A DNA stretch of 64,000 nucleotides, taken from the NCBI RefSeq assembly GCF_003073045.1, contig NC_037593.1, forward strand, positions 2,099,525-2,163,524, written 5' to 3'. Under the pieces are notes generated by a model that saw nothing but the letters and a program-made list of their open reading frames with translations, made no database searches and was not told where the DNA came from. A program made the position numbers and the translations under genes. Shown here piece after piece: positions 11,682-64,000 of this stretch (position 1 is the first letter of the stretch; every line of letters starts with the position of its first letter). This DNA comes from Pomacea canaliculata (lineage: Eukaryota; Mollusca; Gastropoda; Architaenioglossa; Ampullariidae).

Positions 11682-11837
11682 GTAGCCTCTCTTCCATCCT
11701 CATCATGCTTGCACTTGTTGTCATAATTGTGAACGACTGCTTGTCTGTGGAGAGAGTAAACAAGTAAACAATGTTCATGCTGTTGTTTATTTGAGATGAC
11801 GACAGCAACATTTATGTCGTGTTTATGTTTGCTGCAG

Positions 11838-15817: not shown

Positions 15818-15958
15818 ATGCTGTCTACCAGGAAATCACTGAGAGATGAAATATTCCGTGAAAGGAAGCAGCCTTGGAGTCTTCTTGACACACTTGTAGT
15901 CATGCTGTGGTCAGACTCCACTCACCTCAACAGCAAACAGTTGTCTGTGACGAACACC

Positions 15959-23460: not shown

Positions 23461-23712
23461 GATGTTGATTGGTGGTGCTTGTTGGTGCTTGTTGACCGTG
23501 GTTGTTAATTGGTTGTTGCTGCTTTTCGTTGTTGAGCTTGGTTGCTGTTGAAGTTGCTAGTTGTTGTAGTTGTTATTGATGGTGGTTGTTGTTGCAGTTG
23601 CTTGATTGTCAAGATGATTGTTGATTGGTTCCTGTTAGTTAATTAATTGAGGATAGATTCTTAATTAGATGTTGTTGTTGGTTGTAAAGGTTGTTTGTTG
23701 TTGTTATTATTG

Positions 23713-37730: not shown

Positions 37731-37732
37731 CC

Positions 37733-39696
37733 AGTGGTGCTCTTTGCCCAGTGGTAAAGCTAGGCGACCACCCACCCTGCCTTCAGCCAGGGTGTGCTCT
37801 TGCCCAGTGGTAAAGCTAGGCCGACCCCCACCCTGCCTTCCAGCCAGGGTGGTGCTCTTGCCCAGTGGTAAAGCTAGGCCGACCCACCCACCCTGCCTTC
37901 CAGCCAGGGTGGTGCTCTTGCCCAGTGGTAAAGCTAGGCCGACCCACCCACCCTGCTTCAGCCAGGGTGGTGCTCTTGCCCAGTGGTAAAGCTAGGCCGA
38001 CCCACCCACCCTGCCTTCCAGCCAGGGTGTGCTCTTGCCCAGTGGTAAAGCTAGGCCGACCACCCACCCTGCCTTCCAGCCAGGGTGGTGCTCTTGCCAG
38101 TGGTAAAGCTAGCCGACCCACCCACCCTGCCTTCCAGCCCAGGGTGGTGCTCTTGCCCAGTGGTAAAGCTAGGCCGACCCACCCACCCTGCCTTCCAGCC
38201 AGGGTGGTGCTCTTGCCCAGTGGTAAAGCTAGGCCGACCCACCCACCCTGCCTTCCAGCCAGGGTGGTGCTCTTGCCCAGTGGTAAAGCTAGGCCGACCC
38301 ACCCACCCTGCCTTCCAGCCAGGGTGGTGCTCTTGCCCAGTGGTAAAGCTAGGCCGACCCACCCACCCTGCCTTCCAGCCAGGGTGGTGCTCTTGCCCAG
38401 TGGTAAAGCTAGGCCGACCACCCACCCTGCCTTCCAGCCAGGGTGGTGCTCTTGCCCAGTGGTAAAGCTAGGCCGACCCACCCACCCTGCCTTCCAGCCA
38501 GGGTGGTGCTCTTGCCCAGTGGTAAAGCTAGGCCGACCCACCCACCCTGCCTTCCAGCCAGGGTGGTGCTCTTGCCCAGTGGTAAAGCTAGGCCGACCCA
38601 CCCACCCTGCCTTCCAGCCAGGGTGGTGCTCTTGCCCAGTGGTAAAGCTAGGCCGACCCACCCACCCTGCCTTCCAGCCAGGGTGGTGCTCTTGCCCAGT
38701 GGTAAAGCTAGGCCGACCCACCCACCCTGCCTTCCAGCCAGGGTGGTGCTCTTGCCCAGTGGTAAAGCTAGGCCGACCCACCCCCACCCTGCCTTCCAGC
38801 CAGGGTGCTGCTCTTGCCTCAGTGGTAAAGCTAGGCCGACCCACCCACCCTGCCTTCCAGCCAGGGTGGTGCTCTTGCCCAGTGGTAAAGCTAGGCCGAC
38901 CCACCCACCCTGCCTTCCAGCCAGGGTGTGCTCTTGCCCAGTGGTAAAGCTAGGCCGACCCACCCACCCTGCCTTCCAGCCAGGGTGGTGCTCTTGCCCA
39001 GTGGTAAAGCTAGGCCGACCCACCCACCCTGCCTTCCAGCCAGGGTGGTGCTCTTGCCCAGTGGTAAAGCTAGGCCGACCCACCCACCCTGCCTTCCAGC
39101 CAGGGTGGTGCTCTTGCCCAGTGGTAAAGCTAGGCCGACCCACCCACCCTGCCTTCCAGCCAGGGTGGTGCTCTTGCCCAGTGGTAAAGCTAGGCCGACC
39201 CACCCACCCTGCCTTCCAGCCAGGGTGGTGCTCTTGCCCAGTGTAAAGCTAGGCCGACCCACCCACCTGCCTTCCAGCCAGGGTGTGCTCTTGCCCAGTG
39301 GTAAAGCTAGGCCGACCCACCCACCTGCTTCCAGCCAGGTGGTGCTCTTGCCCAGTGGTAAAGCTAGGCCGACCCACCCACCCTGCCTTCCAGCCAGGGT
39401 GGTGCTCTTGCCCAGTGGTAAAGCTAGGCCGACCCACCCACCCTGCCTTCCAGCCAGGGTGGTGCTCTTAGCCCAGTGGTAAAGCTAGGCCGACCCACCC
39501 ACCCTGCCTTCCAGCCAGGGTGGTGTGCTCTTGCCCAGTGGTAAAGCTAGCCGACCCACCACCCTGCCTGCCTTCCAGCCAGGGTGGTGCTCTTGCCCAG
39601 TGGTAAAGCTAGGCCGACCCACCCACCCTGCCTTCCAGCCAGGGTGGTGCTCTTGCCCAGTGGTAAAGCTAGGCCGACCCACCCACCCTGCCTTCC
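37733..39696. repeat. 60-bp minisatellite array (~33 copies)
   Basis: The period is exactly 60 bp, with many identical consecutive copies (for example 38161-38400 and 38461-38760) and a few single-base variants near both ends. Each unit contains GCTCTTGCCCAGTGGTAAAG and GGCCGACCCACCCACCCTGC. The period is a multiple of three and the unit lacks stops in several frames, so long artefactual open frames occur on both strands. Confidence 0.98.
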
Positions 39697-41679: not shown

Positions 41680-42244
41680 CTATACACAGCTACATTACAT
41701 TTCTCTTGGCAATCACTAGGTTTGAGCGAAAGGCTTGACAGAAAAACTGATCATATTAGAGAACGAAAACATCACAAAGCAAAGAGAAAAAAACCCAACA
41801 AAAACAAAAACAAAAATGAAATACCCTAGTTTTGATCACACCACATGTCAATCCCAAGTGGGTACTGATTACTCTATACGGGTACCACTGAGTCTGATTA
41901 CTCTGTACGGGTACCCGACAGACAACATGCACGAGCCCACGTTCCCATGGCGCGAGTTCAGTGTCACCCGCTAGGATCATCCCTATGATCGCCACAGGAA
42001 GTGCTTTCGTTACAGGACTAGAAATATTCAGATAAGCTCCTCGTGGCGTCTGCCTTCGTGTGATGTGAGCTATCACAGTGTCACTGATACAATCTCCTGT
42101 ATATATATATATCAGCTACATCGGTTGACAAGCATCGCAAGGTCTGGCCGTGACGAGCGAACCTACTGCTTTCTTGAAGAACATCGAAGATCTAAAGGAC
42201 AGTTTGACAATAATCAGAAGACGTGTCAACAAGGGGAGGTGACC

Positions 42245-43186
42245 ATGGAGGGTACATACACCAGTACAGATGTATACAGCCATAACCATACACGCAAGGA
42301 CTATCTGTATGCTAATGCAGAGAGCTACTACATACACAGAGTGGGCTGCATACCCGTGGCATTGCTGGGTATCGTGGGTAACCTGGTGTCCCTCGTCGTG
42401 TGGAACTCACAGACCACGTACAGCGCCACCATCTTCCTGTTCAAGTACCTGGCCGTGTGGGACACCGCATTCCTGGTGTCGGTCATCCCCGTCATATTTC
42501 TGTCACGCTCTCGTCTGTCCCACAATGCATTGTTTGCAGTGACATTTTTGTCAACACTTGCCAGGCTGGAGTCAGTGCACACCACCCTGCTCATTGCCAT
42601 CACCCGATGGCTAGCGGTGTACCGACCTGTCCACGTGCACACCGGAAGTCTGTTAACACGACGTCACGTGGTGCTGGCCTGTCTGGTCGTCTCGGTCTGG
42701 TGCCTGGCGATGCTCTCAGTCGTCCTGGCAGCTAAACTTGCTTCAGAATTCGCTAAGTCATGGCTACGAGTGCTTATCTTCGTCGAAATCGTCAATGTTG
42801 CTGTTTCTGTTCTTCCACTGATCGTTTTCAACATTCTCACAACAAAAAAGATTTGCTCTCACTTTTCCTGGACACCAACATCGTCGTCAGGACCACAGCC
42901 TGCGACATCCAGGACCAGCAACCAGCGCCTGACGATGGCCAGCGTGTGGATGAGTGTCTTCACTGTGGCGGCCTACACCCTCGGCCTGACTGTCACCTAC
43001 ATTTCTGTGTTTCTTCTCTTGAAAAAAAACCGAAAGCTTTTCATCATTTTCTCATCTGTGTCCGACCTGCTAGAAGTGTTCAACTCCAGTGTCAACATCA
43101 TCTTCTATTTGACACTCTCTCGCACCTTTCGCAGTTCCTTCAAAAAACATTTTATTGGCAGAGGCCGTGCAGTCGGCGCTGGCTGA
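42245..43186 (+). CDS. GPCR2: class A (FMRFamide-receptor-like) receptor, single exon
   Basis: Close paralogue of GPCR3 and GPCR4. I choose the ATG at 42245 (MEGTYTSTDVYSHNHT) because the MEGT start is shared by GPCR2, 3 and 4; the open frame runs on to 42065. TM1 GIVGNLVSLVVW, TM2 KYLAVWD, TM3 end AITRWLAVYRP, loop 2 start HVHTGSLLTRRH, and TM7 NSSVNIIFYLTLS. The DRY motif is T-R-W, and TM6 reads VAAYTLG in place of CWxP. One N-glycosylation site (NHT) is in the N-terminus. The C-tail is short (GRAVGAG) compared with GPCR4. AATAAA at 43416-43421 is a likely poly(A) signal. It is the first gene on the right side of the satellite block. Confidence 0.88.
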   Translation: MEGTYTSTDVYSHNHTRKDYLYANAESYYIHRVGCIPVALLGIVGNLVSLVVWNSQTTYSATIFLFKYLAVWDTAFLVSVIPVIFLSRSRLSHNALFAVTFLSTLARLESVHTTLLIAITRWLAVYRPVHVHTGSLLTRRHVVLACLVVSVWCLAMLSVVLAAKLASEFAKSWLRVLIFVEIVNVAVSVLPLIVFNILTTKKICSHFSWTPTSSSGPQPATSRTSNQRLTMASVWMSVFTVAAYTLGLTVTYISVFLLLKKNRKLFIIFSSVSDLLEVFNSSVNIIFYLTLSRTFRSSFKKHFIGRGRAVGAG

Positions 43187-44767
43187 GAAGTTCGTCAAAA
43201 CGATTTGAGCAGAAGATGTAAGATCATCATCGTTATCATCGTTATCATCATCGTCGAACCCAGATGTCATGAAGAGGTTGAAATTTCAAGAAAAACACGA
43301 TGACCTGACCTGCAGATGATTATTAGTTTAATGTGTTTAGTACTAATTGTTGGCGCACTGACCTCTCAGCCAGCATTGTATTCATTTTCAGTTCTGACCA
43401 TACGATTACTCAAAAAATAAAATATAGAAAATTCATAAAATTGTGAAGTATTTGTGGCACAGAAAAAAGCTGTGTATGTTGGCTTGGAGTTGTTGTAGTT
43501 ATTATTATTATTGAAACAGTCGGCCGTTCTATTGTGGACGCCGGGGTGTGGAGACTCTAGTGTTCCATGTACAGGAGTATCTGTGGGTGACCTTTGGCCC
43601 TTCCTGCTCCAGCTCACCATGGAGGCTACACAGCATCGGGATGTTGAGATTATGATTAGTTGTACTAGGGATTACAGTTGCTGGCTTGTTGCTGTGTGTT
43701 GGGATGCAAAGCGAGGCTCAGGTCAGGACCGAGAGAAATCTGAGAGCAGGAACATCTGTGGTGGCCTGGATTCCCATTGTTACATGAAGTTAGTGCTGTG
43801 ATGTCCGAGTGACCGCGAGAATAGTTTCTGGCTGACTTCACATCCGTCAGGACACAGTTGATACAGATATTGAATGAGCTGCCCAGAAAACAGGCGAAAA
43901 GAGAAAGAGAGAGTGAGAGAGAATAAAGAAAGGAAAACAAAGAAAAAAGAACGAACAACTAAACTAAAAACAATTGTTGCAAGGAACTTTGTTCAAACTC
44001 GCACCTGAGTGGCAGCATGACAGAGGGGTGGGTTAGTGGCCTGTTCAGCCCTCCGCCTGTTAGCTGCCACCAGTTATCACCCCCGGGGCAATGTTCCATT
44101 TGAAGTGAAAAAATTGTAACAGTAACACATAACACATTCATAGCGACAGCAACAACAACACTACAAGACAGCAAGCAAGTAAATGATGGCAAACTAGTTT
44201 AGTCCTTCATACTCCTGCTGACGGCGGTTAAAGGTGGCGCCATCTTGTTTAGTTTCTGGTTTAATTCCTGAACATCCGAGCGAATAGCAACCAGTTATGC
44301 GGAGTGCAGATGAACTCTTTGAAACACTTGACTGAGACCACATTTCCGATTTATGCCCGACTTAATGACATCAGTCCCTGAGAGGAAACTGTGAGCACTG
44401 GACACTCTGCACGTGGCAGCCATTGTGGCAGCTTCTAGGCAACGCGCATGCGCCGTCCCATATCTCATTCGTGCCAATCCAGTTTGTCCCGACAGAGATC
44501 AGTATGTCCAAGATTTGCTCAGGAAGTGATTATCGTCCGATAGGATAACCCATCAGATAAGCTTCCATAAGCGCCACCTGTACTTGTATGATACGAGTAA
44601 TTTTAGTTTCACTGACACAATCGTCTTTAATTAAATAAATCAATGAATCACTTCACTGATGTCTGACGGTCTGCTTGTGACGAGTCCCTCCGTATTTTTT
44701 TATTGATAGAAGAACACAAAGAATGTGAAGGACACTAACAAGAAGACATTTTAACTAAGAGCTGATC
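43187..44767. other. Spacer between GPCR2 and GPCR3
   Basis: GPCR2 3' flank with a short ATC-rich stretch at about 43223-43255 and AATAAA at 43416. No other gene was recognised. Confidence 0.5.
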
Positions 44768-45763
44768 ATGGAAGGTACACATGTCAGTACTGATGTGTAT
44801 AACGATCGCTATGGCGACGACTACGTCTACCGTAGTACAGAGAGCTACTACATAGATACAGTCGGCTGTATACCCGTGGCATTGCTGGGTATCGTGGGTA
44901 ACCTGGTCTCCCTCCTCGTGTGGAACTCACAGACCACGTACAGCGCCACCATCTTGCTGTTTAAGTACCTGGCCGTGTGGGACACCGCATACCTCGTGTC
45001 TTTCATCCCCGTTTCCTTTGTTTATGACGATGATCCAGGAGGCCCTCTGGCCATATCGCTGGACGCTTTCTGGTACCTCACCAAGCTGGAGTCAGTGCAC
45101 ACCACCCTGCTCATTGCCTTCACCCGATGGCTGGCGGTGCACCGACCTGTCCACGTGCACACCGGAAGTCTGTTAACACGACGTCACGTGGTGGTGTCCT
45201 GTCTGGTCGTCTTGGTCTGGTGCCTGGCGATCAGCGCCGTCTTCATGACCTTTAACCTGATTCTAGGGACTTCTAACACCTGGGTACTCGAGCTGATCAT
45301 CATTAACATCGTGGGTCTGGCTGTGCCTGTCCTTCCCCTTGTCGTCTTCAACCTTCTCACAATAAAGAAGATTCGTTCTTCAACATCAACAACATCGTCA
45401 TCAGAACAACGACTGCCCACGTCCAGGACCAGCAACCACAGCTTAACCATCACCATCATGTCCATGAGTGTTTTGAGTGTCGTGGCCTACACCATCGGCA
45501 AGACTGTGATGGATGTTTATTGGCTTCGACACTGGAGTGAGAGTGGCAGCTCCTTTACCACCCTGCAGTCTTTGACCGAGCTGCTGCAGGTCGTGAACTC
45601 CAGTGTCAACATTATCTTCTACTTCTCATTCTCTCGCAAGTTTCGCAGTTCCTTCAAAAACTGCTTTGTTCGCAGAGGCCATGCAGGCAGAGCTCGACGA
45701 GAAGTTCTTCAAAGCGATGACAGAAATGATTTCAACAGCAGTTGTGCAATGTCCAGACTGTAA
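44768..45763 (+). CDS. GPCR3: class A (FMRFamide-receptor-like) receptor, single exon
   Basis: Start MEGTHVSTDVYNDRYG at 44768, 331 residues. TM1 GIVGNLVSLLVW, TM2 KYLAVWD, TM3 end AFTRWLAVHRP, TM6 VVAYTIG, and TM7 NSSVNIIFYFSFS. The T-R-W replacement of DRY and the absence of CWxP are shared with GPCR2 and 4. The reading frame stops at 45763. A tail resembling that of GPCR4 (SETVVL against TETVAL) is present 43 bp further on, in another frame, at 45789-45806, so the C-terminus has probably shifted frame recently. ATTAAA at 46012-46017 may serve as the poly(A) signal. Confidence 0.88.
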   Translation: MEGTHVSTDVYNDRYGDDYVYRSTESYYIDTVGCIPVALLGIVGNLVSLLVWNSQTTYSATILLFKYLAVWDTAYLVSFIPVSFVYDDDPGGPLAISLDAFWYLTKLESVHTTLLIAFTRWLAVHRPVHVHTGSLLTRRHVVVSCLVVLVWCLAISAVFMTFNLILGTSNTWVLELIIINIVGLAVPVLPLVVFNLLTIKKIRSSTSTTSSSEQRLPTSRTSNHSLTITIMSMSVLSVVAYTIGKTVMDVYWLRHWSESGSSFTTLQSLTELLQVVNSSVNIIFYFSFSRKFRSSFKNCFVRRGHAGRARREVLQSDDRNDFNSSCAMSRL

Positions 45764-48030: not shown

Positions 48031-48472
48031 CTAATAGTTAATATTTATGTTTCCTGTAGGATTGTAGGTTGGACAAAGGTTGTAGGAGCCGTGAGTGGAG
48101 AAATTTAGTTCTGAAATTTGGTCAAGTCTGTCACTCCCATGAGATGACACTTCCTCTTCACTTAAATCACCGGAAGGAAGCGTTTCTGGAGTGCGAGCTG
48201 AGTCTGTGTGTGCGTCACGGTGTCCGAGCCCAGCGCGTGCGTGTCACGACAGGTGGTGCCACAGACAGAGGACTGGAGGTGACGTAGTCATGCCATGAGG
48301 ACCACCAATCACAGACACTTCCTAGACCATCGTTAGGGTGTGGGAAAACATCGTGATTCACTGAAGCAAATCGTCTGTGAAAAGAAAGATCATTTCAATA
48401 GTCACACAACATCTCAACGTCTCTCAGTCCGTCTGCTACATTTTGTGAAGAACAGTGAGGATCTGCGCAGCC

Positions 48473-49521
48473 ATGTCAGGGTTAGAAGACAGTTCAGTAA
48501 ACGAAAGTCTGACAATGGAAGGTACAGATGGCTATGACGACGGCTACTCTGGCGATTACTATAACGTCTATACTACAGAGAGCTACTACGTAGACAGAGT
48601 GGGCATCATACCCGTGGCATTGCTGGGTATCGTGGGTAACCTGGTGTCCCTCGCCGTGTGGAACTCACAGACCACGTACAACGCCACCATCTTCCTGTTC
48701 AAGTACCTGGCCGTTTGGGACACCGCATTCCTCGTGTCGGTCATACCTGTGATATTTCTGTATGAAGTTGATCCATGGAGCAGACCCGCCATAGTCCTCA
48801 ACACTTTGTCATTTCTTGCCAAGCTGGAGTCAGTGCACACCACCTGCTCATTACCTTCACCCGATGGCTGGCGGTGTACCGACCTGTCCACGTGCACACC
48901 GGAAGTCTGTTAAAACTACGTCACATGGTGGTGGCCTCTCTGGTCGTCTTGGTCTGGTGCCTGGCGATCAGCGCCGTCTTCATGAACTTTAACCTGCTTT
49001 CAGAACCCACTCACCAATGGGTATACGGGTGGATCGCCGTCCACATCGTGGGTCTGGCTGTTCCTGTCCTTCCACTTATCGTCTTCAACGTCCTCCTGCT
49101 GATCAAGATTCGAACTCCCTTTTCTCCGACATCAACAAAGTCAGAGCAGCATCAGTCGAGCACGTGGGGCAGCACCCAGCGCCTGACGGTGGCCATCTTG
49201 TCCATGAGCGCCTTCAGTGTCGTGGCCTACACCATCGGCGAGACGACGACAGTCGTTCACTGGCTTGGACACTGGAGCGACGGCGGCGACCTCTTCCTCA
49301 CTCTTCAGTCTTCCTTCGAGCTGCTGCAGGTGGTCAACTCCAGCATCAACGTCGTCTTCTACTTTGCCTTTTCTCGCAATTTCCGCAGTTCCTCCACCAA
49401 GTGCTTCAGCCGCTGGGTCCTGAGAGGCCGGGCAGTCAGCGCTGGACACCGAGGTCCTCACAGCGAAGACAAAGGCGACTCCTCCAGCAGCCGCACAGCG
49501 ACTGAGACTGTGGCTCTGTGA
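48473..49521 (+). CDS. GPCR4: class A (FMRFamide-receptor-like) receptor, single exon (one single-base frame shift)
   Basis: The paralogue-consistent start is MEGTDGYDDGYSGDYY at 48515; an in-frame ATG at 48473 (MSGLEDSS) would add 14 residues. TM1 GIVGNLVSLAVW and TM2 KYLAVWD are followed by LAKLESVHTT. There the frame changes by one base: CACCACCTGCTC at about 48844, where GPCR2 and GPCR3 have CACCACCCTGCTC. The second part continues with TFTRWLAVYRPVHVHTG, TM5, TM6 VVAYTIG and TM7 NSSINVVFYFAFS. The N-terminal Cys before TM1 seen in the paralogues is Ile here. The tail ends RTATETVAL. All other motifs are intact, so a missing C in the consensus is likelier than a pseudogene. AATAAA occurs at 49875-49880. 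Confidence 0.83.
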
Positions 49522-51689: not shown

Positions 51690-52504
51690 TAAGGGCTACT
51701 AAAAGGCTATAGACGGCACTGTGACAGGCTATATATAGACTACAGCATGGCGGTTGTGATGGTGTGACGTGTGATGTGTGTCCGAGGGGTGGACTCGTCA
51801 CGACAATGACAATGACAATGACGAGGGTTGACAAGCGCTCGTGAATGTAATGTACTGTGTCGTTGTACTCACATTGTATTTCTTTCACATTTGTACACAT
51901 CGCTGTCTTCTGTCCTCATCCTTTTCACCCTCCACTAGTTTCACAATCTTTGTTTAGTTGTAATTTTTATGTAAATGAATAGAGGAATGAAGCGTGACAT
52001 CGTGTTGAGCTGTCACGTGATCATTTAACATCTTGTTGGGCTGTCACGTGATCATTTAACATCTTGTTGAGCTGTCTTGAACACATAGTGTAAACAAATA
52101 ATAACATGGAAGGATATAAATGAACTTCAAGATTGTGATCATGTGATCATTTAACATCGTCAGGCAGCTTGTGTACAAGTGTAGTAGCAGCTCCAGGATC
52201 AGCTCCAAACAGTTTGGTTGCTAGTGGCTAATTCATTCTCATCATAATAACTCATTAACACCGGAATCTGTCCTGAGTGCCAGGAAAGTACAGCAGTGAG
52301 TGAGCCTCAGGCTGAGCTTCTCACTGGAACTTCTCAAAACCTTCCGGTTCATTATGACAGCAGTTTTAAAGCGGTTCCCTTTCTACACTCCCCGTGCACA
52401 CACGTACACACACTCACACGGACACACACAAACAGGTACCTGCACAAAACATTATTCAATGCCAATGTTTTATTTTTGTGAAATCAGCAGACTGCTTAAG
52501 ACAA

Positions 52505-52647
52505 TCACGGCACCTTTAGATCAATTATTTCATCTCTGTCTGGGACGCACATGGGGCCCCCATCCGCCTGTCGTTTCTTCAAAGGATGCAGCAACACTCC
52601 CTCCCCATCAGCATCGATGTCGGCAGCAACAAGTGACTGGCCTGGGT
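52505..52647 (-). CDS. Secreted peptide precursor A, exon 3 (propeptide and mature peptide)
   Basis: On the minus strand the exon follows a GTGGACAG acceptor and joins the signal exon in phase 1 (G + AC = Asp). It encodes PGQSLVAADIDADGEGV, then LLHPLKKR, then QADGGPMCVPDRDEIIDLKV-P and TGA (52505-52507). LKKR is a classic prohormone-convertase site, and the released peptide would start with Gln (able to form pyroglutamate) and holds one Cys. The full precursor is 72 residues. LLHPLKKR aligns with LLHSIKKR in copies B and C, but the sequence after the cleavage site is unrelated. An AATAAA signal lies at 52469-52474 (tttatt on +), 31 bp past the stop. The function is unknown; a neuropeptide or another secreted bioactive peptide is possible. 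Confidence 0.68.
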
Positions 52648-52980
52648 CTGTCCACAGACAGCGATGTGAGAGTTTGATGGAAAAACGATTGTGTGCATAG
52701 TACAACTAAAGATACAACAACAAAACTAATCTTAAAATGTTCATAATTCATAGACTTTGAAACTCTCTCCCTCTCTCACCCTCAGTCTTTCCCTGTTTTA
52801 CCTTTCATCGCCAACTCATTCACACCTTCTGACACACCAGACAATCATCAGCTCCGCTGATACTAACGGTAACTCTGGTGACCAAGGTATATAGCAACAG
52901 CCATTATTGAGATAATAAAATATATCGTAGCTTCACTCAATTTAAAAACGAGAAAAGAGAAGAAGAGGGCAAACACTGAC

Positions 52981-53056
52981 CATCGCGATTCGCTGCAGCA
53001 GCAGTCAGCTGACACAGCACCACCAGCACCGCTACAACCATCAGCACGTGTCGCAT
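52981..53056 (-). CDS. Secreted peptide precursor A, signal-peptide exon
   Basis: ATG at 53054-53056 opens MRHVLMVVAVLVVLCQLTAA followed by AANRD, a textbook signal peptide with a long Val/Leu core and an Ala-rich cleavage zone. The exon ends at GATG/GTCAGT in phase 1. Its acceptor is CTCACCGTCAG, giving an exon of 89 bp (52981-53069) with 13 noncoding bases before the ATG. The same exon occurs at 59646 and 63585 with only one coding difference (Asn against Thr at residue 23). The intron to exon 3 is 333 bp. Confidence 0.75.
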
Positions 53057-53378
53057 GATGACGTGATATCTGACGGTGAGATACGACAGTCAACAGGTGT
53101 AACACCAGGTGTAGGACCTACCTGGTGGCCACAACATCTTTCTTCACTCAACTTACAAACTCACAACCGAGAGACTAAAGGTAGGAACTGAAAACCGTTA
53201 GGCTTGGACTTAAATCATCCTTCTTCTGCTCCTCGCTTACCTCGCCAAGCTTTTAATTTATTCTTTATCAACGACAGATTTGTCTCTCTCTCACACACAG
53301 CTGGACAAGAATACGACAAAACGTATTTTACGACAGTCGACTAAAACAAATCATCAAACATCACAAAAAACAGCTCAC

Positions 53379-53477
53379 CGTTGTCACTCCTGATGTAAAA
53401 TGACTCAGAGTCGAGACTCGTAGTTGAAATCTGCTTCACTGAGACATACCAGTGCACAGAAATTTCTCTCATTTATA
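53379..53477 (-). promoter_or_regulatory. Promoter and 5' UTR exon of peptide gene A
   Basis: TATA box TATAAAT (ATTTATA on +) at 53471-53477. An initiator-like TCAGTG sits about 31-37 bp downstream, with its A at 53440. From there a 62-bp ATG-free exon runs to the donor AACG/GTGAGC at 53379. The same spacing is found in copy B, and the initiator-to-donor distance is also the same in copy C, which makes this a credible transcription start. Confidence 0.7.
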
Positions 53478-53560
53478 TTCTACACGAACGGCGAGGTGGA
53501 CTGAGGTCAAGTGTCGAGAAACTACCTTGTAGCCGCTGATTGGCTGACGAATGATGATCT

Positions 53561-54180
53561 CGGACTTCCTCTTCCTTCTTTACTTCGTGTAGTAGTCTTG
53601 GAGTACAACAGCAGTCTAGTAGTAGTTTAGTAGAGCTCTAGTGGAGGTGTAGTAACAATGCTGTAAGTCTAGTAGCAGTCTAGTAGCATGTAGTCTAGTA
53701 TTAGTCTAGTATTAGTCTAGTAGCAATCTTGTAGCGGTCTAATATTAGTCTACTAGCAATCTGGTAGCAGTCTAATATAAGTTCGACAAGCTGTTTCAGG
53801 CGGCTGCTCGCGGTTTGATTGATGAGGTCGAGTGTGTATAATGCATATTTTGGGAATAATCGGTCTATTCGTGGAAATAGATTCAGAATATATATCTAAT
53901 AATTATTTATTTCAAGGATGACAGTAGGTAAACTGTGTTCACATAAACAAAACAGCTATGAACACCTTCATTTCTTGTTTCCTCGTCTCAACCTTCAATA
54001 GTTCACCTAAACTATTTTGTCCTCTGACCTCAGAGGATGTTGAGTGTGGGATGTGGATGTTGGGTACAGGGAGGTGGGCTGCCTGCATTCTTCCAGTTTA
54101 TCCCTCGTCTGACGTCGACGACTTGTTTGTGCGGGAGGTGGGTGGCCTGGTTGGTGTGGGTGTTAGTGTGGGCTGTATAG
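53561..54180. other. Spacer left of the LTR fossil
   Basis: A loose short repeat of GTCTAGTAGCA/GTCTAGTATTA type lies at about 53605-53775. No gene was recognised. Confidence 0.6.
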
Positions 54181-56920
54181 GTCCATTGAAGTGTCCAGGC
54201 TCTAAGGTCAACGTCTCCTGGTACTGTCCCAGTACTTGTTGAGCTTGGTCTCTTTGTGAGGTGAGAGCTGACGATCTGTTTTGACATCTTGGATGTTCTC
54301 GTGAGCCGGCCTCGTAGGTAGTGATATCGAATCAGGTTCTGAAGGCAATTCCAACACGGCGAGATTACTTGCCGGTATGGTAGGTGTTGTGAATAGGGGT
54401 TCCACGGTGATGGTCCTTTTCTCTAGTGGTGGAATAAACTCTGGAGATAAGATTTGAAAAAGAAAGATAGATAAGAAAGGAGTTAGTCTGAAGCAGTCTC
54501 AGAAGCGAGTGGTGGGTTTGATGGAAGGAAATCCGCCAACATGGCGGTTTGTGTTGGTGTTCTCTTGTGATACATTTTGATCATGTTGATGTGGAACAGT
54601 TTGTCCTTTCCACGGATGTTTATGGTGTAGTCAGGATGCCTCTTCCGGGTAACCACGTACGGTACCTGCCACTGAGCGAGTAGCTTGTTCAGTTTCTTAG
54701 GTCGCAATAATAGTACCTCGTCTCCTTCCTGTAGTTCTCTAGCCCTCGCTCTTTTGTCGTAGTAATGCTTTCTGTTTTCCTCCTGCTTTATCTTGATTGA
54801 TGGTAGCCATAGTTGTAGATTCCTACAGTATGTTTTTCAGATATAATACATACTGGAAGATTGACTTTCCTTCCTCTTCCTCTGAAGATTTTGTCTATGG
54901 TGTTGCCAACAGGCTAAAGGGTCCCCTAGGTTGTCTCCCATATAGTCCTGTACTCCCGGGGCATTTTCTATGATCAAATCAGTCACAGGGTGTTTGATCA
55001 CACATTTCAAGACGCCTTTATAAAACGTTGTGCCCACTAACACACGAGCTACGGGGAAAGTTTCAATATTTTCCCTAAATGTTATGCATGCCTGGCTGTG
55101 ACCGATATAATTCATTGTCCTGAACCAGGCCAGCACGAATTCCCGCTATCGTTGCTCCCGTGTCTCGCAACACCTGCACGGTTCTCCTCGAACTGTCCCT
55201 GGGTAAAGTTCTAGTCGTCCGAATTCTCCCTGCGTTGTAGATGAGCATAGAATGCCAATATTTGCTGGTTTCGGAGGTTCTCGATTGTCGGAGTTAGAGG
55301 TATTAGTCCCTAGCGTGTTTGCACACACTCGGGAAATGTGTCCGAATCCCCGGCATGCGTAGCACTGGATCTTCCTAATTAAAGTCGGAGACCTCTTGTC
55401 TGGTGATCGTGGAGTGGTAGACTCATCCGTCGTGGGGCGTGACCGCCCGGTCGGTCGTACCTCACTGGATCCTCTTCCTGGTATATAGCGAGTCCTTGAA
55501 GAACAGTCGTGACCCTGCATGCGGTTGTCACGCGGCCTACCCTAGCGAGGTGAACACGTGTTTCCACCGGTAGTTTGGCTCACACTGGTGAACGCTGGAT
55601 TGTCACTCCGTCGTGTGCACTGAAACTTGATTAACATTTCTCGTTTTAGTTCGTCGTAATCTACGGGACCCTGTACACATCATCATACAACAGAAGGTCT
55701 TCTCCATGAAAAGCCGTGGACATTTGTAAGGGCCAAATATCCTTGGGCCATTTAAGAGTCTGTGCCTGAGCTTCAAATCGTCTCACAAAGGCGTTGATAT
55801 CATCAGAGTCCTCTTTGAATACTTGGATCTTATGGATGAGTCCTCTTGGGGCTTGGTTCCCATTACTACTTGACGCACTCGAATCGGTTCCTCGCTTAAG
55901 ATGTAGTCTCTCTAATTGGAAATGACACTCGGCTTCTCTTTCTCTTGCTGCCCATTCAGCCTCAGCTTCTTCCTTCTTAGCTATCCTATCAGCCTCTTCT
56001 TTCTTAGCTATCCTATCTTCATATCTTTCCTGTCTCTCTATACACTGTAGGACATAATTATTTAGTAAGGGCTTCGTCTCTAAGACCAATCAGTTCACCT
56101 TCCCTTACGTAAGCAGCTACATCCCTAGTCGGTTCTGCCATGTTTACAACAATTCACTACTCACAGGTTGATGCTATCAAGCTGAATGACTAAGCAACCA
56201 CTCAAAGTTTTCAAACTTATACACAGTAAAGCTGTAAACCTGCACCAGGTTCATCAGAATTTCACAGAAGTTAACAAAATCAGTTCTCAAACATCAACAT
56301 GAAAACATCCAATAACCTCACCAGAGGTATGTCAACAACTACAAAATTAACTTGCCTCAAAAGGTCATAACCAGCAACCAAAGTGTCAAGCGTGTTAATC
56401 AAAGGGAAACATTCATGGTTCCGAGAATCCCAAAAATGCACGGTATTCTCCTCAGTGCCACAATGAAGCATATCAACACAAATCAAATTGAGAAAACTGG
56501 TTGTCATACATAAATAGGGTCAAACAATACCATATGCACAATACATATAACGATCAGTCCAACATTTTCTTAAAATATTAAGGGAGCAAAATTGACCCTG
56601 AAAAGAAGAAGCTATTCATACTCCTAATCACTCACACGACCAATCAAGAACAGAAAGCTTAGAGACAGACGAGAGACAGGAAGGCACAGGAACTAGTCCC
56701 TTACTACGGGTAGAACTATACAAACCTAACCCGTAGAACTGGAGACGGGATCTACTGCACAGCCCCACACATTTTTAAACTCAACTTACTACACAACAGA
56801 TGAACCCCTATCCTACACGCCCAATGGAAGATCACAAACACGAGATCAAAGACAAGCTCTCCTCCGACTCAGCACAGAACGAGACAAACCCTCGACAGAT
56901 CACGTCGGGGTCACCAACGG
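54180..56920 (-). mobile_element. Gypsy-type LTR retrotransposon fossil
   Basis: Parts recognisable on the minus strand, in order: a primer-binding-site-like motif near 56895-56915; a gag-like region at about 56140-55660 (MAEPTRDVAAYVREGE start, later a Glu/Arg-rich coiled stretch); a CCHC zinc-knuckle-like motif (CYACRGFGHISRVC) near 55350; a protease-like stretch (VIKHPVTDLIIENAPGVQDY) near 54950; and an integrase C-terminal-like stretch (LLAQWQVPYVVTRKRHPDYT) near 54650. The element is broken in several places and not functional as it stands. No convincing pair of terminal repeats was found, so the outer limits are approximate. It sits between peptide-gene copies A and B. Age is uncertain, but the pieces are still easy to recognise. 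Confidence 0.75.
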
Positions 56921-57379
56921 ACGTCACAAGGTTACTGAGTGCACTGTCAACACACTCCGTCCCACACCTGTCCTTTGCAACAACACACCACAAAGATTCT
57001 AAGTCGCCTTACTCCTGTAACAGGAGGGAGCTTGTATTTGTTGTAGAGGGGACAGGTAACTTAATTTACACACCTGAACATCTATACATAAACGAGATTA
57101 TGAACCATAAATATATCATTAATGTCATGAATGATAGTTTCTAAAGCCTTCTTCTCCGAGGGGATTCCTCTCTGGGTAATTCCTCTTCTAGTTACTTCCT
57201 CTCCTGGGTAATTCCTGCAATGCTTATTCATATTGAACTTAATTACTATCACAACAACAACAACCACAAAATAAACTCTTTCCATTCTCTTTCAACCAAA
57301 TATTACATCATTTCACCATTCTTTCGCCGATAGGGAGAGAGCCAAAGCAATAAAAACAACTTATCCCATACCTTGAATA
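56921..57379. other. Right flank of the LTR fossil
   Basis: This may include the remains of the element's terminal repeat next to the primer-binding-site-like motif. Near 57155-57210 a GGGTAATTCCTCTTC-type sequence repeats two to three times. No gene was recognised. Confidence 0.45.
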
Positions 57380-57744
57380 GGCAAGGAATCAAACCGATTC
57401 CCCAATCTCTTCTACTCAAAATTCTCTTGTCTCTCTCACTCGAAGACTGGCGTGGGAATGATCAAACTCAGTATTTCTCATACACCACAGATTCGGTGAA
57501 CCTTTCTCTCACTCAAGCCCGCTTTTTTTCTTGAAATCTTCACTTCCACCCATTCTCTCTAATGCACGTGTAAGGGCGATAATCCCTGTCTACCAACAGA
57601 CAGAGGCAACAACCCCCCACTTCCTACCAAATGAAATTGTTTATATTTTGGGAAAAAAGTCATTGAAAGCGACTTTTACCAAAGTCAACGTGTCTGTGAC
57701 TATCTCTTATATTTCTAGCTCTCTGATATTATGTCCCTTAATAA

Positions 57745-57745
57745 G

Positions 57746-57822
<77 letters not shown>
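57745..57822. repeat. (CAA)n microsatellite, unit B
   Basis: About 25 uninterrupted CAA triplets. The orthologous position in unit C (61527-61585) is shorter and interrupted. Confidence 0.97.
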
Positions 57823-59273
57823 AGAAAGGGTGTTTATCAAAACTTATATATTTTTTCCCTGCTCCCCACAATGGATGGCAAAATGCGGCGAACCCTGAGT
57901 GAACATTGCCACAGGATACAACTCACAACTAAGTAGGGCATGAACTTCCGGAGTGCTAGTCGCTAATAGTAATCACTTGACCTTTGCTTCATTGTCAGTT
58001 CTTGACCTTTAGTCATCTGTAGCATTTGACCTCATCACTTGTACCACATACTCACACGAGGAGAAATCATCGAGCTTCGTCATCAGGGCCTGTAGAGAGA
58101 GAGAGGAACTCCACTCCAAATAAGAAAAATTAGAAACCCAAGGAAAAACTGCTGTAGACTACAATGTGACAGACTATAGACTACAGTGTGACAGGCTATA
58201 TATAGACTACAGTGTGACAGACTATAGACTACAGTGTGACAGGCTATATATAGACGGCACTGTGACAGGCTGTATACATGTCACACCTATGACATCGCTC
58301 TGGTCAACGGGGTGTGGCCTGGAAGATGCGGTTGTGATGGTGTGACGTGTGATGTGTGTCCGAGGGGTGGACCCGTCACGACAATGACAATGACAATGAC
58401 AATGACGAGAGTTGACAAGCGCTTGTCAAAGTAATGTACTGTGTCGTTGTACTCACATTGTATTTCTTTTACATTTGTACACATCGCTGTTCTCATCCCT
58501 TTCACCGTCCACCAATTTCATAATCTTTATTTATTTTATTTTTTTATTTAAATGAATAGAGGAATGAAGAGTGACATCGTGATGAGCTGTCACGTGATCA
58601 TTTAACATCGTGTTGAGCTGTCACGTGATCATTTAACATGGTGTTGAGCTGTCTTGAAGACATGGTGTAAACATATCATAACAGGGAAGGATATAAATGA
58701 ACGTCAAGACTGCGGTCACGTGATCATTCAACATCTTCAGTCGATCGTTCACTAGCGAAATTAACTCTCCGTAGGACCAGCCACCGAGTGTTTGGTTGCT
58801 AGTTGACTAATTCACTGTCATCGTAATATAGTCATTAACACCGGAACTTGTGTCCTGAGTGCCAGGGACGTACAGTAGCGAGTGACCCTCGGGGTGAGCA
58901 TCCTATTGTAACTTGTCTAAACTTGTTAGTTCATGATGACCGCAGTTAAAGTGGCTTCCCTCCTTCTCTTTCTCTCTCAACACACACATGTATACACATA
59001 GACAAGTTGTTCATTGTGGTTGTTTATTTGTCACAGCAGCATGCCTGTAAACAAACATCACGTTGAGTACAAACGACATATTGTTTGCTCGTCCATGTTA
59101 TCTCTGGTACTGTGAGAAGCTGACGACAGCAAACGGTTTACACCGCTGTCACATCAACTGTACAACAACACAACAACATAACATCAGCAGCTACAAAGCC
59201 TGCGACTGTCGATGACTAGAGACAAATGTCTTGGGACTAAGAACCTTTCTGCAGGATCAGTGCCTGTCGTCGG

Positions 59274-59398
59274 TCACATCACCAGCTGACCTTGCGGTCG
59301 TCGTCGGGGCGGTAGTCGATTTCGAGCTCTGGTGTCTACCCAACTCGCCCGCTTCTTTATGGAATGTAGCAAGTCTTGTGACAGGGGCTTACCCTGGT
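59274..59398 (-). CDS. Secreted peptide precursor B, exon 3 (propeptide and mature peptide)
   Basis: After the acceptor TGTCGGCAG the exon completes an Asp codon and encodes QGKPLSQDLLHSIKKR, then ASWVDTRARNRLPPRRRPQG and QLVM, ending at TGA (59274-59276). Cleavage at IKKR would release a basic, proline-rich peptide; further processing at Arg clusters could free ASWVDT-type peptides. The precursor is 66 residues. Copy C has two further basic residues (PSKR) in place of ARNR. The poly(A) signal AATAAA is at 59023-59028 (tttatt on +). The WVDT-R after the dibasic site distantly recalls molluscan PKYMDT-type neuropeptides; this is only a suggestion from memory. Confidence 0.68.
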
Positions 59399-59645
59399 CT
59401 GCCGACATAACATGGGGATATCGTACACACATTTATCAACTGTCTCCTTCTCTCACCTTAATTCTTTCTCTCTTCCTCGCGCACACATTCACACCTGACA
59501 CACCAGACAATCATCAGCTCCACTGATACTAACGGTAACTCCGCTCGCCTGTGTATCTAGCAACAACCATTGTTGAGACAATAAATATATCGCATCTTAC
59601 TCAACGTAAAAACGAGAAAAGAGCAGAAGAGAATCAAACACCAAC

Positions 59646-59721
59646 CATCGCGAGTCGCTGCAGCAGCAGTCAGCTGACACAGCACCACCAGCACCGCTAC
59701 AACCATCAGCACGTGTCGCAT
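59646..59721 (-). CDS. Secreted peptide precursor B, signal-peptide exon
   Basis: ATG at 59719-59721 encodes MRHVLMVVAVLVVLCQLTAA followed by AATRD. The donor is GATG/GTTGGT, slightly weaker than the GTCAGT of copies A and C. The whole exon is 59646-59734 (89 bp), and a 247-bp intron separates it from exon 3. Confidence 0.75.
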
Positions 59722-59968
59722 GATGACGTGATATCTGACGGTGAGAGAAGACAGTCAACAGGTGTAACAGCAGGTGGAGGACCTACCTGGTGGCCACAAC
59801 ATCTTTCTTCACTCAACTTACAAACTCACAAAACTTATCAACGACAGATTTGTCTCTCTCTCACACACACAGCTAGACAAGAATACCACAAGCCACACGC
59901 CATCTCTAGCAAAACGTATTTTACGACAGTCGACTAAAACAAATCATCAAATGTTACAAACAGCTCAC

Positions 59969-60067
59969 CGTTGTCCCTCCTGATGTAAAATAACTCAGAG
60001 TCGAGACTGGTAGTTGAAATCTGCTTCACTGAGACACACCAGTACTTACAAATTTCTCCCATTTATA
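59969..60067 (-). promoter_or_regulatory. Promoter and 5' UTR exon of peptide gene B
   Basis: TATAAAT at 60061-60067 (ATTTATA on +), initiator TCAGTG with its A at 60030, and a 62-bp noncoding exon ending at the donor AACG/GTGAGC (59969). Spacing is identical to copy A. Confidence 0.7.
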
Positions 60068-60167
60068 TTCTACACGAACGGCGAGGTGCACAGAGGTCAA
60101 GTGTCGATCAAACAACCTCGTAGCCACCGATTGGCTGACGTACGATGACCTTTGACTTTATTTTCCT

Positions 60168-60626
60168 TCCGTTCTGTGGCAGTATGGGATGGCAGGCGAC
60201 TGCAAAGAAAGAAGACTTTGTTCTCAGCATCAACAACTTATCGGTCTTTACTGGGCTGCCATGATTGTGACTGTTGGAGGGACACATCCTGGTTCTCTCT
60301 GGAGTTTTGACAGCCTCAGTCAGTTTTAGTCTACACCGGAAGTTGAAAGCCCAGTAGTTGAAACAGCGGCGTTCGAACCCCAGGTGTGCACTAGGCGGAT
60401 CGGTACCCATGAACAACAGCGCAGTTCTTGTAGCACTCACTCACTCACTCACTCGCTGAACCGAGACGCACACGTCCCAGAACCGGTGACGTCATCGACA
60501 ACGAGGCTGCTGTTAACGAAGATGACTAGTGCACGACGGACCACAAAGACCCTGCTACTGTCCCCCTAGGTACCTCCAACTGCCAGGAACACACACGTCA
60601 TACTCAATGGAGTGAACAAGATCGGA
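60168..60626. other. Upstream flank of peptide gene B
   Basis: No gene was recognised. A CACT/ACTC-rich short tract lies near 60436-60455. Confidence 0.5.
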
Positions 60627-60634
60627 GTGACAGA

Positions 60635-60932
60635 CAGGGCCGCCGAGAGCCAGCCCGGGCCCCGGGACAGACCTCTCCGGGCCCCTTGTACTTGTAATCG
60701 TAAATTATTTTCCCAGTATATAATGTATGTTTACAATTCGAATCTCAATATCTACACTCAAACTCAACTTCTGCATGTGTAATGCTTGGGTGTTCTGTCC
60801 TTAGACCTTTCTTTAAAAGAAAAAGAAAAGGAGAGAGAAGAAAAAAAAATCCACTGACCAAGGCCGGGCCCCCTTGACAGCCGCGGGCCCGGGTACACCA
60901 GACCCCCCTGTCCCCCCCTCTCGTCAGGCCTG
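60635..60932. mobile_element. hAT-type MITE, long form (298 bp), inverted relative to the 47.8-kb copy
   Basis: It starts CAGGGCCGCCGAGAG and ends CTCTCGTCAGGCCTG, with the same terminal inverted repeats as the 216-bp copy. Flanking perfect 8-bp direct repeats GTGACAGA lie at 60627-60634 and 60933-60940. It holds about 80 bp of internal sequence missing from the shorter copy. No coding capacity. Confidence 0.9.
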
Positions 60933-61524
60933 GTGACAGACGGCACCAACCTACCCGATCCTCTCCCCTCCAGACATCATTGTACGCGTGGTCAGAGTTG
61001 TCTGCCCAGTCAATGGAGGACATCGAAAACGGACAACAGTACCTACAAAGAACACCAACAAGAAATAAGTGACAAGATGGCCCGGCCCTCCACAGTTCAT
61101 GACAATTGCTATCCCATAATGTCGGGGACTTTGTGTGGACGGCAAGACACAAGCAAGACAAGGGAGAGAATCAAAGCGATTCCACAATCTCTTCTACTCA
61201 AAATTCTCTTGTCTCTCTCACTCGAAGACTGGCGTGGGAATGATCAAACTCAGTATTTCTCATACACCACAGATTCGGTGAACCTTTCTCTCACTCAAGC
61301 CCGCTTTTTTCTTGAAATCTTCACTTCCACCCATTCTCTCTAATGCACGTGTAAGGGCGATAATCCCTGTCTACCAACAGACAGAGGCAACAACCCCCCA
61401 CTTCCTACCAAATGAATTGTTTATATTTTGGGAAAAAAGTCATGAAAGCGACTTTTACCAAAGTCAACGTGTCTGTGACTATCTCTTATATTTCTAGCTC
61501 TCTGATATTATGTCCCTTAATAAG

Positions 61525-61564
<40 letters not shown>

Positions 61565-61904
61565 GCACAACAACAAACAACAACAAAGAAAGGGTGTTTA
61601 TCAAAACTTATATATTTTTTCCCTGCTCCCACAATGGATGGCAAAATGCGGCGAACCCTGAGTGAACATTGCCACAGGATACAACTCACAACTAAGTAGG
61701 GCATGAACTTCCTGGAGTGCTAGTCGCTAATAGTAATCACTTGACCTTTGCTTCATTGTCAGTTCTTGACCTTTCGTCATCTCTAGTATTTGACCTCAAC
61801 ACTTGTACCACACTTCACACGAGGAGAAATCATCAGGACCTGTAGTTAGAGAGAGAGGAACTCCAAATAAGAAAAATTAGAAACCCAAGGAAAAACTGCT
61901 GTAG

Positions 61905-62265
61905 ACTACAGTGTGACAAGCTATATATAGACTAGAGTGTGACAGGCTGTATATAGACTACACTGTGACAGACTATAGACTACAGTGTGACAGGCTGTAT
62001 AGAGACTACAGTGTGACAGACTATAGACTACAGTGTGACAGGGTGTATATAGACTACAGTATGACAGGCTATATATAGACTACAGTGTGACAGGCTGTAT
62101 ATAGACTACAGTGTGACAGGCTGTATATAGACTACAGTGTGACAGGCTGTATATAGACTACAGTGTGACAGGCTAAATATAGACTACAGTGTGACAGACT
62201 ATAGACTACAGTGTGACAGTCTATATATAGACTACAGTGTGACAGGCTGTAGACTGTATACATAT
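61905..62265. repeat. ~28-bp minisatellite inside unit C
   Basis: Units of the type GACTACAGTGTGACAGGCTG plus TATATA, some shortened to about 21 bp. It lies downstream of peptide gene C on the minus strand. The homologous site in B is 58150-58275. Confidence 0.92.
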
Positions 62266-63212
62266 GACATCGCTCTGGTCAAGTGTATGTGCCCTGGAAG
62301 ATGCGGTTGTGATGGTGTGACGTGTGATGTGTGTCCGAGGGGTGGACCCGTCACGACAATGACAATGACAATGACAATGACGAGAGTTGACAAGCGCTTG
62401 TGAATGTAATGTACTGTGTCGTTGTACTCACATTGTATTTATTTCACATTTGTACACATCGCTGTTCTCATCCCTTTCACCGTCCACCAATTTCATAATC
62501 TTTACTTATTTTATTTTTTTATTTAAATGAATAGAGAAATGAAGCGTGACATCGTGATGAGCTGTCACGTGATCATTTAACATGGTGTTGAGCTGTCTTG
62601 AAGACATGGTGTAAACATATCATAACAGGGAAGGATATAAATGAACGTCAAGACTGCGGTCACGTGATCATTCAAATCTTCAGTCGATCGTTCACGAGCG
62701 AAGTTAACTCTCCGTAGGACCAGCCACCGAGTGTTTGGTTGCTAGTGACTAATTCACTGTCATCATAATAGTCATTAACACCGGAACTTGTGTCCTGAGT
62801 GCCAGGGACGTACAGTAGCGAGTGACCCTCGGGGTCAGCATCCTATTGTAACTTGTCTAAACTTGTTAGTTCATGATGACCGCAGTTAAAGTGGCTTCCC
62901 TCCCTCTCTCTCTCTCTCCACACACACATGTATACACATAGACAAGTTGTTCATTGTGGTTGTTTATTTGTCACAGCAGCATGCCTGTAAACAAACATCA
63001 CGTTGAGTACAAACGACATATTGTTTGCTCGTCCATGTTATCTCTGGTACTGTGAGAAGCTGACGACAGCAAACGGTTTACACGCTGTCACATCAACTGT
63101 ACAACAACACAACAACATAACATCAGCAGCTACAAAGCCTGCGACTGTCGATGACTAGAGACAAATGTCTTGGGACTAAGAACCTTTCTGCAGGATCAGT
63201 GCCTGTCGTCGG

Positions 63213-63337
63213 TCACATCACCAGCTGACCTGGCGGTCGTCGTCGGGGCGGTAGTCGTTTTGAAGGTCTGGTGTCTACCCAACTCGCCCGCTTCTTTATG
63301 GAATGTAGCAAGTCTTGTGACAGGGGCTTACCCTGGT
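63213..63337 (-). CDS. Secreted peptide precursor C, exon 3 (propeptide and mature peptide)
   Basis: After the acceptor ATGTTAGCAG the exon encodes Asp (split codon), QGKPLSQDLLHSIKKR, ASWVDTRPSKR, then LPPRRRPPGQLVM and TGA (63213-63215). KKR and KR bracket ASWVDTRPS, so a short peptide could be excised cleanly, leaving a basic proline-rich C-terminal fragment. The precursor is 66 residues. The poly(A) signal AATAAA is at 62963-62968 (tttatt on +). The differences from copy B cluster after the cleavage site. Confidence 0.68.
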
Positions 63338-63584
63338 CTGCTAACATAACATGGGGATATCGTACACACATTTATCAACTGTCTCCTTCTCTCACCTTAA
63401 TTCTTTCTCTCTTCCTCGCGCACACATTCACACCTGACACACCAGACAATCATCAGCTCCACTGATACTAACGGTTACTCCGCTCGCCTGTGTATCTAGC
63501 AACAACCATTGTTGAGACAATAAATATATCGCATCTTACTCAACGTAAAAACGAGAAAAGAGCAGAAGAGAATCAAACACTGAC

Positions 63585-63660
63585 CATCGCGAGTCGCTGC
63601 AGCAGCAGTCAGCTGACACAGCACCACCAGCACCGCTACAACCATCAGCACGTGTCGCAT
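63585..63660 (-). CDS. Secreted peptide precursor C, signal-peptide exon
   Basis: ATG at 63658-63660 encodes the same 25 residues as copy B. The donor is GATG/GTCAGT. The whole exon is 63585-63673 (89 bp), and the intron to exon 3 is 247 bp. Confidence 0.75.
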
Positions 63661-63791
63661 GATGACGTGATATCTGACGGTGAGAGAAGACAGTCAACAG
63701 GTGTAACAGCAGGTGGGGGACCTACCTGGTGGCCACAACATCTTTCTTCACTCAACTTACAAACTCACAAAACTTATAAACGACTGATTTG

Positions 63792-63823
<32 letters not shown>

Positions 63824-63926
63824 CAAACAGCTAGACAAGAATACCACAAGCCACACGCCATCTCTAGCAAAACGTATTTTACGACAGTCGACTAAAACAA
63901 ATCATCAAATGTTACAAACAGCTCAC

Positions 63927-63988
63927 CGTTGTCACTCCTGATGTACAATGACTCAGAGTCGAGACTCGTATATGAAATCTGCTTCACT
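63927..63988 (-). promoter_or_regulatory. 5' UTR exon of peptide gene C
   Basis: A 62-bp noncoding exon between the initiator TCAGTG (A at 63988) and the donor AACG/GTGAGC (63927), matching copies A and B. The TATA box expected about 31 bp upstream lies beyond the window. Confidence 0.62.
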
Positions 63989-64000
63989 GAGACACCAGTA

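Follow-up and report, generated by a model that had tools for sequence, protein, structure and literature searches.

A 64,000-nucleotide stretch of the Pomacea canaliculata genome (assembly GCF_003073045.1, contig NC_037593.1, positions 2,099,525 to 2,163,524), referred to here as the window, contains three members (c1 to c3) of a gene family that has expanded in tandem and whose hypervariable products are probably secreted host-defence peptides of the proline-rich antimicrobial peptide (PrAMP) type. In the gene plan, an untranslated exon 1 (verified in c1 to c3) precedes a conserved signal exon that ends at a phase-1 intron; the third exon is predicted to encode a short propeptide and, in most cases after a convertase site of the KR type, the mature peptide at the C terminus. 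Once the precursor is secreted and cut by a convertase, a free peptide rich in proline and arginine (P/R) would result, and duplication combined with rapid change of the mature segment would furnish each snail with a varied set of such peptides.

The original prediction, made on the letters of the window, described c1 to c3 as a tandem family of three small secreted-peptide genes with concordant exon phases, splice sites and poly(A) signals that could not be assigned to a known family. Checking the borders on the DNA confirmed the three-exon design in all three: a 62-bp untranslated exon (its start being the position set in that prediction) and a signal exon of 89 bp are followed, across a phase-1 intron, by an exon with a KKR site and a short tail (Table 1). 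The donors read GTGAGC and GTCAGT/GTTGGT and the acceptors CAG, and the predicted spliced products are 72, 66 and 66 amino acids long for c1, c2 and c3, respectively, each with a KKR site. The prediction of a secreted precursor stands as well, with its exon phases and its cleavage site. The agreement of the poly(A) signals was only partly right, as an AATAAA follows each gene but lies far closer to the stop codon in c1 than in c2 and c3. A family of three was too small a count; the window edge cuts the array, making three a lower bound, and at least 38 signal exons were found in total (30 plus 8 further). Assignment to a known family indeed fails by sequence, with no Pfam family above cut-off in 12 precursors, but neighbours outside the window point to P/R-rich antimicrobial-type peptides. 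The spacing between c2 and c3 is approximately 3.94 kb and constitutes a repeated unit, 91-99% alike across the listed two-copy repeat families, while c1 and c2 are 6.6-6.7 kb apart with retroelement-like sequence in between.

A whole-genome DNA search with a 201-bp c1 query returned eight places, every one on the contig that holds the window (C4 below). A nucleotide profile built from those eight signal exons was run on C4:2,099,525-2,360,000 (260 kb) and gave 24 matches at E<1e-3 beyond the window's repeat before retraining; after two rounds of retraining on its own matches it gave 30 at E<1e-5, spanning 2,152,606 to 2,340,914, while the best match in the reversed or shuffled region reached only E 3.4. 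The signal reading frame and the phase-1 donor are kept in 27 of the 30 signal exons and broken in three, with signal hydrophobicity judged by eye. Of the 27 genes with a phase-1 donor, 21 could be given a third exon (g7 and g9 tentatively); five of the remainder have no convincing third exon and one stops early. The automatic choice of acceptor was poor for c3 to c5, g7, g15 and g16; tail sequences are independent of the acceptor, while the c4/c5 intron and propeptide figures depend on it, making the separate c4/c5 alignment given below the better source.

Protein queries extend the array further along the same contig. All 29 listed matches to a query of MRQLM type, a more distant member, are on C4; they include eight signal exons (2.362-2.486 Mb), with third exons reaching 2.488 Mb; for a cysteine-type member, 17 of 19 listed matches are on C4 and the other two have E>1. 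The g17, g8 and g19 queries also match other contigs (best E 0.003, 1.07 and 0.006, respectively), the weak g19 match lying at C10:18210353-18210463. Members of the MRQLM subfamily (C4 2.29-2.488 Mb) have glycine-containing tails, and the two that were read end in DEPHPV(M/I). Five near-alike signal exons (MQGRL/MRGRLVVVVAALVVMCQ...) with a phase-1 donor are located on C4 at approximately 2202462, 2211155, 2218626, 2223326 and 2234645; no convincing third exon was found for any of these five MQGRL/MRGRL exons (C4 ~2.202-2.235 Mb).

Behind propeptides such as SLVAAHIDAKGEGGLLHSLKKR, DQSLLHLLTKR and EEQGLLHLLLKR, many tails are barely alike, examples being those of c4 (AMDQHLGPVIPFRHEPRRRPRPRSTRRPERILV), c6 (...QQQRPAPRRPQRPLRGLRRRQRPTLV), g15 (EARIYPYTRRPLRTARPLPFVRPDIIPIPPYRPSPTRRPPPIRV), g8 (RPHITIERRPRPRPRPWGHFPRTTTPVRCYCFKAPCNC) and g19 (QAGYPSYPRVPPHHPPRPPPCVCVRHPCPCSGPGY). 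A KR-type site stands ahead of the tail in 17 of the 21 assigned precursors; g17 has NR only, and g7, g8 and g9 have no clear site. Nineteen mature regions were scored, the mature starts of g8 and g17 being placed by hand and g7 and g9 being excluded because of their unclear cleavage sites. For 14 of these 19, no more than 1.7% of 4000 random open stretches drawn from the region have as high a P+R share; leaving out g8, which a P/R filter had picked out, the count is 13 of 18. Published PrAMPs, in the portions of the literature drawn on here and below, contain 14-49% proline and much arginine, often with PRP motifs, and derive from precursors with a pre- and a pro-sequence (PMC11678341). Proline makes up at least 14% of 15 of the 19 mature regions, the P/R-poor c1 included, and never exceeds 49%; it is below 14% in c2, c5, g20 and g21, so that most members, not all, have the composition of PrAMPs. 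The intact signal exons and the KR-type sites counted above (27/30 and 17/21) correspond to the pre- and pro-sequence of such precursors.

Four cysteines are found in eight of the 19 mature regions, spaced CxCx4CxC in six (g8, g10, g11, g14, g16 and g19) and CxCx4Cx3C in g12 and g13, and the other 11 lack both patterns. When these peptides are shuffled, the exact spacing comes up at a frequency of 0.0001 to 0.00075, the eight being paralogs and hence non-independent. In the six CxCx4CxC members a proline-rich N-terminal part precedes the cysteine-containing C-terminal part, which would form two disulfides, while c2 to c4, c6, g15, g17 and others have linear tails, that of g17 with repeated PRP-rich stretches.

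Nine tandem pairs were aligned, and their divergence is unevenly distributed along the gene. In seven of eight pairs the signal exon differs by 0-2.3% against 4.5-35% for the upstream DNA, and it is significantly better conserved than the upstream DNA in six of eight; exon 2 is identical in c4/c5 with 7.9% difference upstream (Fisher p 0.0014) and in c2/c3 with 4.5% upstream (Fisher p 0.024). Seven pairs were tested for divergence of the mature segment relative to the 3' flank, giving 31% vs 11% in c4/c5, 18% vs 5% in g10/g11, 21% vs 9% in g12/g13, 19% vs 3% in g20/g21 and 7% vs 1% in c2/c3. The mature excess in these five pairs (Fisher p 0.0066 to 4.6e-7; combined p over seven pairs 2.5e-16) is indicative, since two pairs share g13, the mature alignments are gapped and the comparison with intron 2, given below, is less uniform. 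The pairs g11/g12 and g11/g13 were left out of this test because they share members with tested pairs; mature identity is below flank identity in both. In the separate alignment, c4 and c5 are 94.8% identical ahead of the cleavage site and 93.9% downstream of the mature stretch, which itself has 70.9% identity. In addition, c1 looks like a mosaic gene: up to the KKR site it resembles c5 (95.5% in intron 2 plus propeptide), and the stretch after KKR has 35-44% identity to the other four copies.

The mature regions were compared with seven published PrAMPs by Smith-Waterman alignment with 1000 shuffles each (19 x 7 pairs, values uncorrected). The lowest values were obtained with arasin-1 (g8, g11, g19), Cg-Prp (c4, g8, g17, g18), penaeidin-1 (c3, g18), and the C. 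maenas peptide and SpPR-AMP1 (g17, g18); most remaining pairs are not significant, so the likeness shows kind and not ancestry. The arasin-1 score was reached by none of 1000 shuffles for g8 and g11 and by two for g19, with composition and the four cysteines carrying the score, and when arasin-1 is aligned with the eight cysteine peptides the invariant columns are the four cysteines and one proline. Arasin-1 is P/R-rich with CNCYAPPCPC near its C-terminal end (PMC11678341, Table 2); its activity resides in the P/R-rich N-terminal part, with inner targets suggested at the minimal inhibitory concentration and membranes above it (PMC3543460). The arasins of crabs have in common with the snail peptides a P/R-rich N-terminal part and a C-terminal CxCx4CxC, with total length close for g8, g10, g14 and g19, although arasins are crustacean peptides set here beside gastropod genes and compared at the level of the mature peptide. 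Callinectin has been described as similar to arasins.

At the level of gene structure, the myticalins and modiocalins, PrAMPs of mussels, are multigene, with a conserved signal, a hypervariable P/R-rich mature part, a dibasic site and pseudogenes, and myticalin genes have three exons, of which exon 1 is entirely 5' untranslated region (UTR), and a phase-1 second intron (PMC5577615). The snail array shares the UTR-only exon 1 (c1 to c3), the phase-1 second intron (27/30), broken copies and a variable mature part behind a fixed signal. In myticalins, however, the mature peptide lies in exon 2 directly behind the signal, and an acidic C-terminal propeptide occupies exon 3 (PMC5577615), whereas in the snail exon 2 stops just past the signal and exon 3 supplies the mature peptide at the C-terminal end of the precursor. 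The portions of PMC5577615 drawn on describe no cysteine subgroup, whereas the snail array has one, and mature myticalin A5, the only myticalin compared, gave no significant sequence match to the snail tails. The array is not a myticalin. Many PrAMPs act against bacteria through the ribosome or DnaK. For myticalin A5, however, the ribosomal tunnel has been reported as an improbable target, so which molecule a molluscan PrAMP acts on is not to be taken for granted.

Among other known peptides, Cg-Prp of oyster, penaeidin-1 of shrimp and the Rapana venosa peptides are proline-rich and cationic like the snail tails; the Cg-Prp score was reached by at most two of 1000 shuffles with c4, g8, g17 and g18 and the penaeidin-1 score by none with c3. 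Unlike the array, Cg-Prp is described as one peptide from a 61-amino-acid precursor and penaeidins as having six cysteines, and the Rapana peptides are described as having no similarity to public sequences. The linear tail of g17 has the same kind of repeated PRP-rich stretches as Bac7, a mammalian cathelicidin PrAMP; Pfam returned no cathelin-type match in the precursors, and the likeness is at most convergence. By its anatomy the array works like a PrAMP family, and by analogy with characterised PrAMPs its linear and disulfide forms would pass into bacteria and hit inner targets, or membranes when the dose is higher. As a more tentative proposal, a single ancestral gene with three exons could have given rise, in one gastropod locus, to PrAMPs of both the linear kind (Bac7-like in style) and the arasin-type disulfide kind, its tandem copies having changed mainly in the mature segment and having stayed far more similar in signal, propeptide and flanks. 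If this is true, the locus would generate antibacterial diversity in the germline, and arasin-type peptides would have arisen independently in molluscs or would predate the mollusc/arthropod split.

Several observations weigh against a hypervariable PrAMP locus. The signal exon of g12/g13 is not better conserved than its upstream DNA (11.6% vs 8.4% difference), and in g20/g21 the advantage is not significant. The mature excess over the 3' flank is not significant in g17/g18 (p 0.6) or g13/g14 (p 0.11), and relative to intron 2 it is absent in g20/g21 and g17/g18 and has p 0.059 in c2/c3. The ratio of non-synonymous to synonymous divergence (pN/pS) of the mature segment is mixed overall, being above 1 in c2/c3 (with no synonymous differences), g12/g13 and g17/g18, close to 1 in g11/g13, and below 1 in g10/g11 and g20/g21; some pairs may plausibly be under positive selection, with local recombination or a loosening of constraint as other possible causes. 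The tails of c1, c5, g20 and g21 are not P/R-rich, those of g20 and g21 contain glycine, that of c5 sits in a different frame from the c4 tail, and g14 is only weakly P/R-rich, with 3.5% of random stretches reaching its share. Net charge is -3 for the c1 tail and zero in g10, g14 and g18, and acidic residues are abundant in the tentative exon of g7. The motif guiding the third-exon search was devised after the first third exons had been seen, so the assigned set may lean to such tails and genes with other tails may be missed. The likeness to arasin and Bac7 is partly compositional; in PDB searches, cathelicidin-3, which we take to be Bac7, matched at just E=2.1 through composition, and g8 found no relevant match. 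Finally, kB-like promoter sites are not enriched (1 found vs 1.35 expected).

The main rival to a PrAMP-type locus is a role in signalling, with the genes coding for neuropeptides, pheromones or chemosensory ligands that evolve fast, since genes for G protein-coupled receptors (GPCRs), which would then be the receptors, are interspersed with them. One GPCR family has eight copies at C4:2.116-2.231 Mb, some next to the peptide genes and others in between them, which weighs in favour of this rival. Four copies are in the window (Table 1) and the other four lie at 2.177-2.231 Mb among the peptide genes, one of the eight being split into two frames; of the four window frames, one passes the Pfam 7tm_1 and Srw cut-offs, one is just under that for 7tm_1 and two have no match. 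The dibasic convertase sites are also in keeping with signalling peptides, as is GYFGRR in g21, read by eye as a possible amidation and cleavage site. However, the tails are almost wholly different across many tandem copies, and receptor ligands as a rule are not so divergent between copies. The same GPCR family is also clustered on C10 (1.21-1.31 Mb) and C2 (3.01-3.06 Mb), where no peptide-gene match occurs among the matches listed, and the 2.231-2.36 Mb interval, which holds 18 of the 30 signal exons, yielded no GPCR copy. An array of ligands and their receptors is thus a possible, if less likely, reading, and we regard signalling peptides as an unlikely explanation overall.

Another exocrine secretion without an antibacterial role, such as mucus, egg fluid or conopeptide-like products, could follow the same conserved-signal, variable-mature plan, which is non-specific by itself, conserved signals having been noted for antimicrobial peptides and toxins alike (PMC5577615). 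The P/R make-up and the proline-rich/CxCx4CxC layout match published antibacterial peptides, however, and no mature region among the 19 has more than four cysteines, leaving such a secretion with a low probability. It is very improbable that most copies are decayed or untranscribed duplicates whose open tails are chance frames. The three broken signal exons, the further gene that stops early, the five genes lacking a convincing exon 3 and the absence of a P/R tail in c1 would suit decay, but signal exons exceed upstream DNA in conservation in six of eight pairs, phase is preserved in 27 of 30, and the P/R-rich tails and cysteine spacing are far from random.

A PrAMP-type hypervariable locus or arasin-like peptides in a gastropod were not found to be reported in the literature searched, as judged by titles and abstract starts among the matches listed. 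For ampullariids as a whole, the 2022 review of apple snail immunity mentions, in the portion drawn on, just one report of an antimicrobial peptide (PMC9178244), a BPI-type protein is named as a candidate in PMC7692235, and the Rapana peptides are the sole snail entry in the corresponding part of the 2024 PrAMP review (PMC11678341). The array would provide a gene-level PrAMP system in Pomacea, where almost nothing was known, with dozens of genes as a source of many natural peptides to try, and its near-identical paralogs would let selection, gene conversion and mutation acting on the mature peptide be separated.

Table 1. Window positions of the peptide genes c1 to c3 and of the GPCR-like open frames (the window begins at C4:2,099,525).
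Feature	Position	Strand	Description
c1 TATA-like	53480-53471		GAATATAAAT, just upstream of exon 1
c1 exon 1	53440-53379	minus	5' UTR, 62 bp
c1 exon 2	53069-52981	minus	89 bp, signal peptide MRHVLMVVAVLVVLCQLTAAAANRD, phase-1 donor
c1 exon 3	52647-52505	minus	propeptide, KKR, tail QADGGPMCVPDRDEIIDLKVP
c1 AATAAA	52474-52469		31 bp past stop
c2 TATA-like	60070-60061		just upstream of exon 1
c2 exon 1	60030-59969	minus	5' UTR, 62 bp
c2 exon 2	59734-59646	minus	89 bp, signal peptide
c2 exon 3	59398-59274	minus	propeptide, IKKR, tail ASWVDTRARNRLPPRRRPQGQLVM
c2 AATAAA	59028-59023		about 245 bp past stop
c3 TATA-like	~64018-64028		just beyond window edge
c3 exon 1	63988-63927	minus	5' UTR, 62 bp
c3 exon 2	63673-63585	minus	89 bp, signal peptide
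c3 exon 3	63337-63213	minus	propeptide, IKKR, tail ASWVDTRPSKRLPPRRRPPGQLVM
c3 AATAAA	62968-62963		about 245 bp past stop
GPCR frame	15818-17056
GPCR frame	41975-43186
GPCR frame	44759-45763
GPCR frame	48449-49521

Several further features were observed in the window. A repeat of 22- and 26-bp units (TGTCACACTGTAGTCTATA...) is located downstream of the c3 and c2 genes, at 61876-62281 and 58103-58304, respectively. The sequence between c1 and c2 includes a degenerate retroelement-like fragment, judged by eye, at 54480-57400, in which the open stretch at 55661-56089 has no Pfam match. A very long HQPSAIS-type tandem repeat (23665-37813), open in three plus-strand frames for hundreds to thousands of codons, grades into an SSQQPAA-type repeat, and a second minisatellite at 37816-39484, PSFTTGQEHHPGWKAGWVGR-like on the minus strand, is open on both strands. 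An ion channel-like open frame at 11800-13623 contains the Pfam Ion_trans_2 domain and might, as a guess, encode a two-pore K+ channel.

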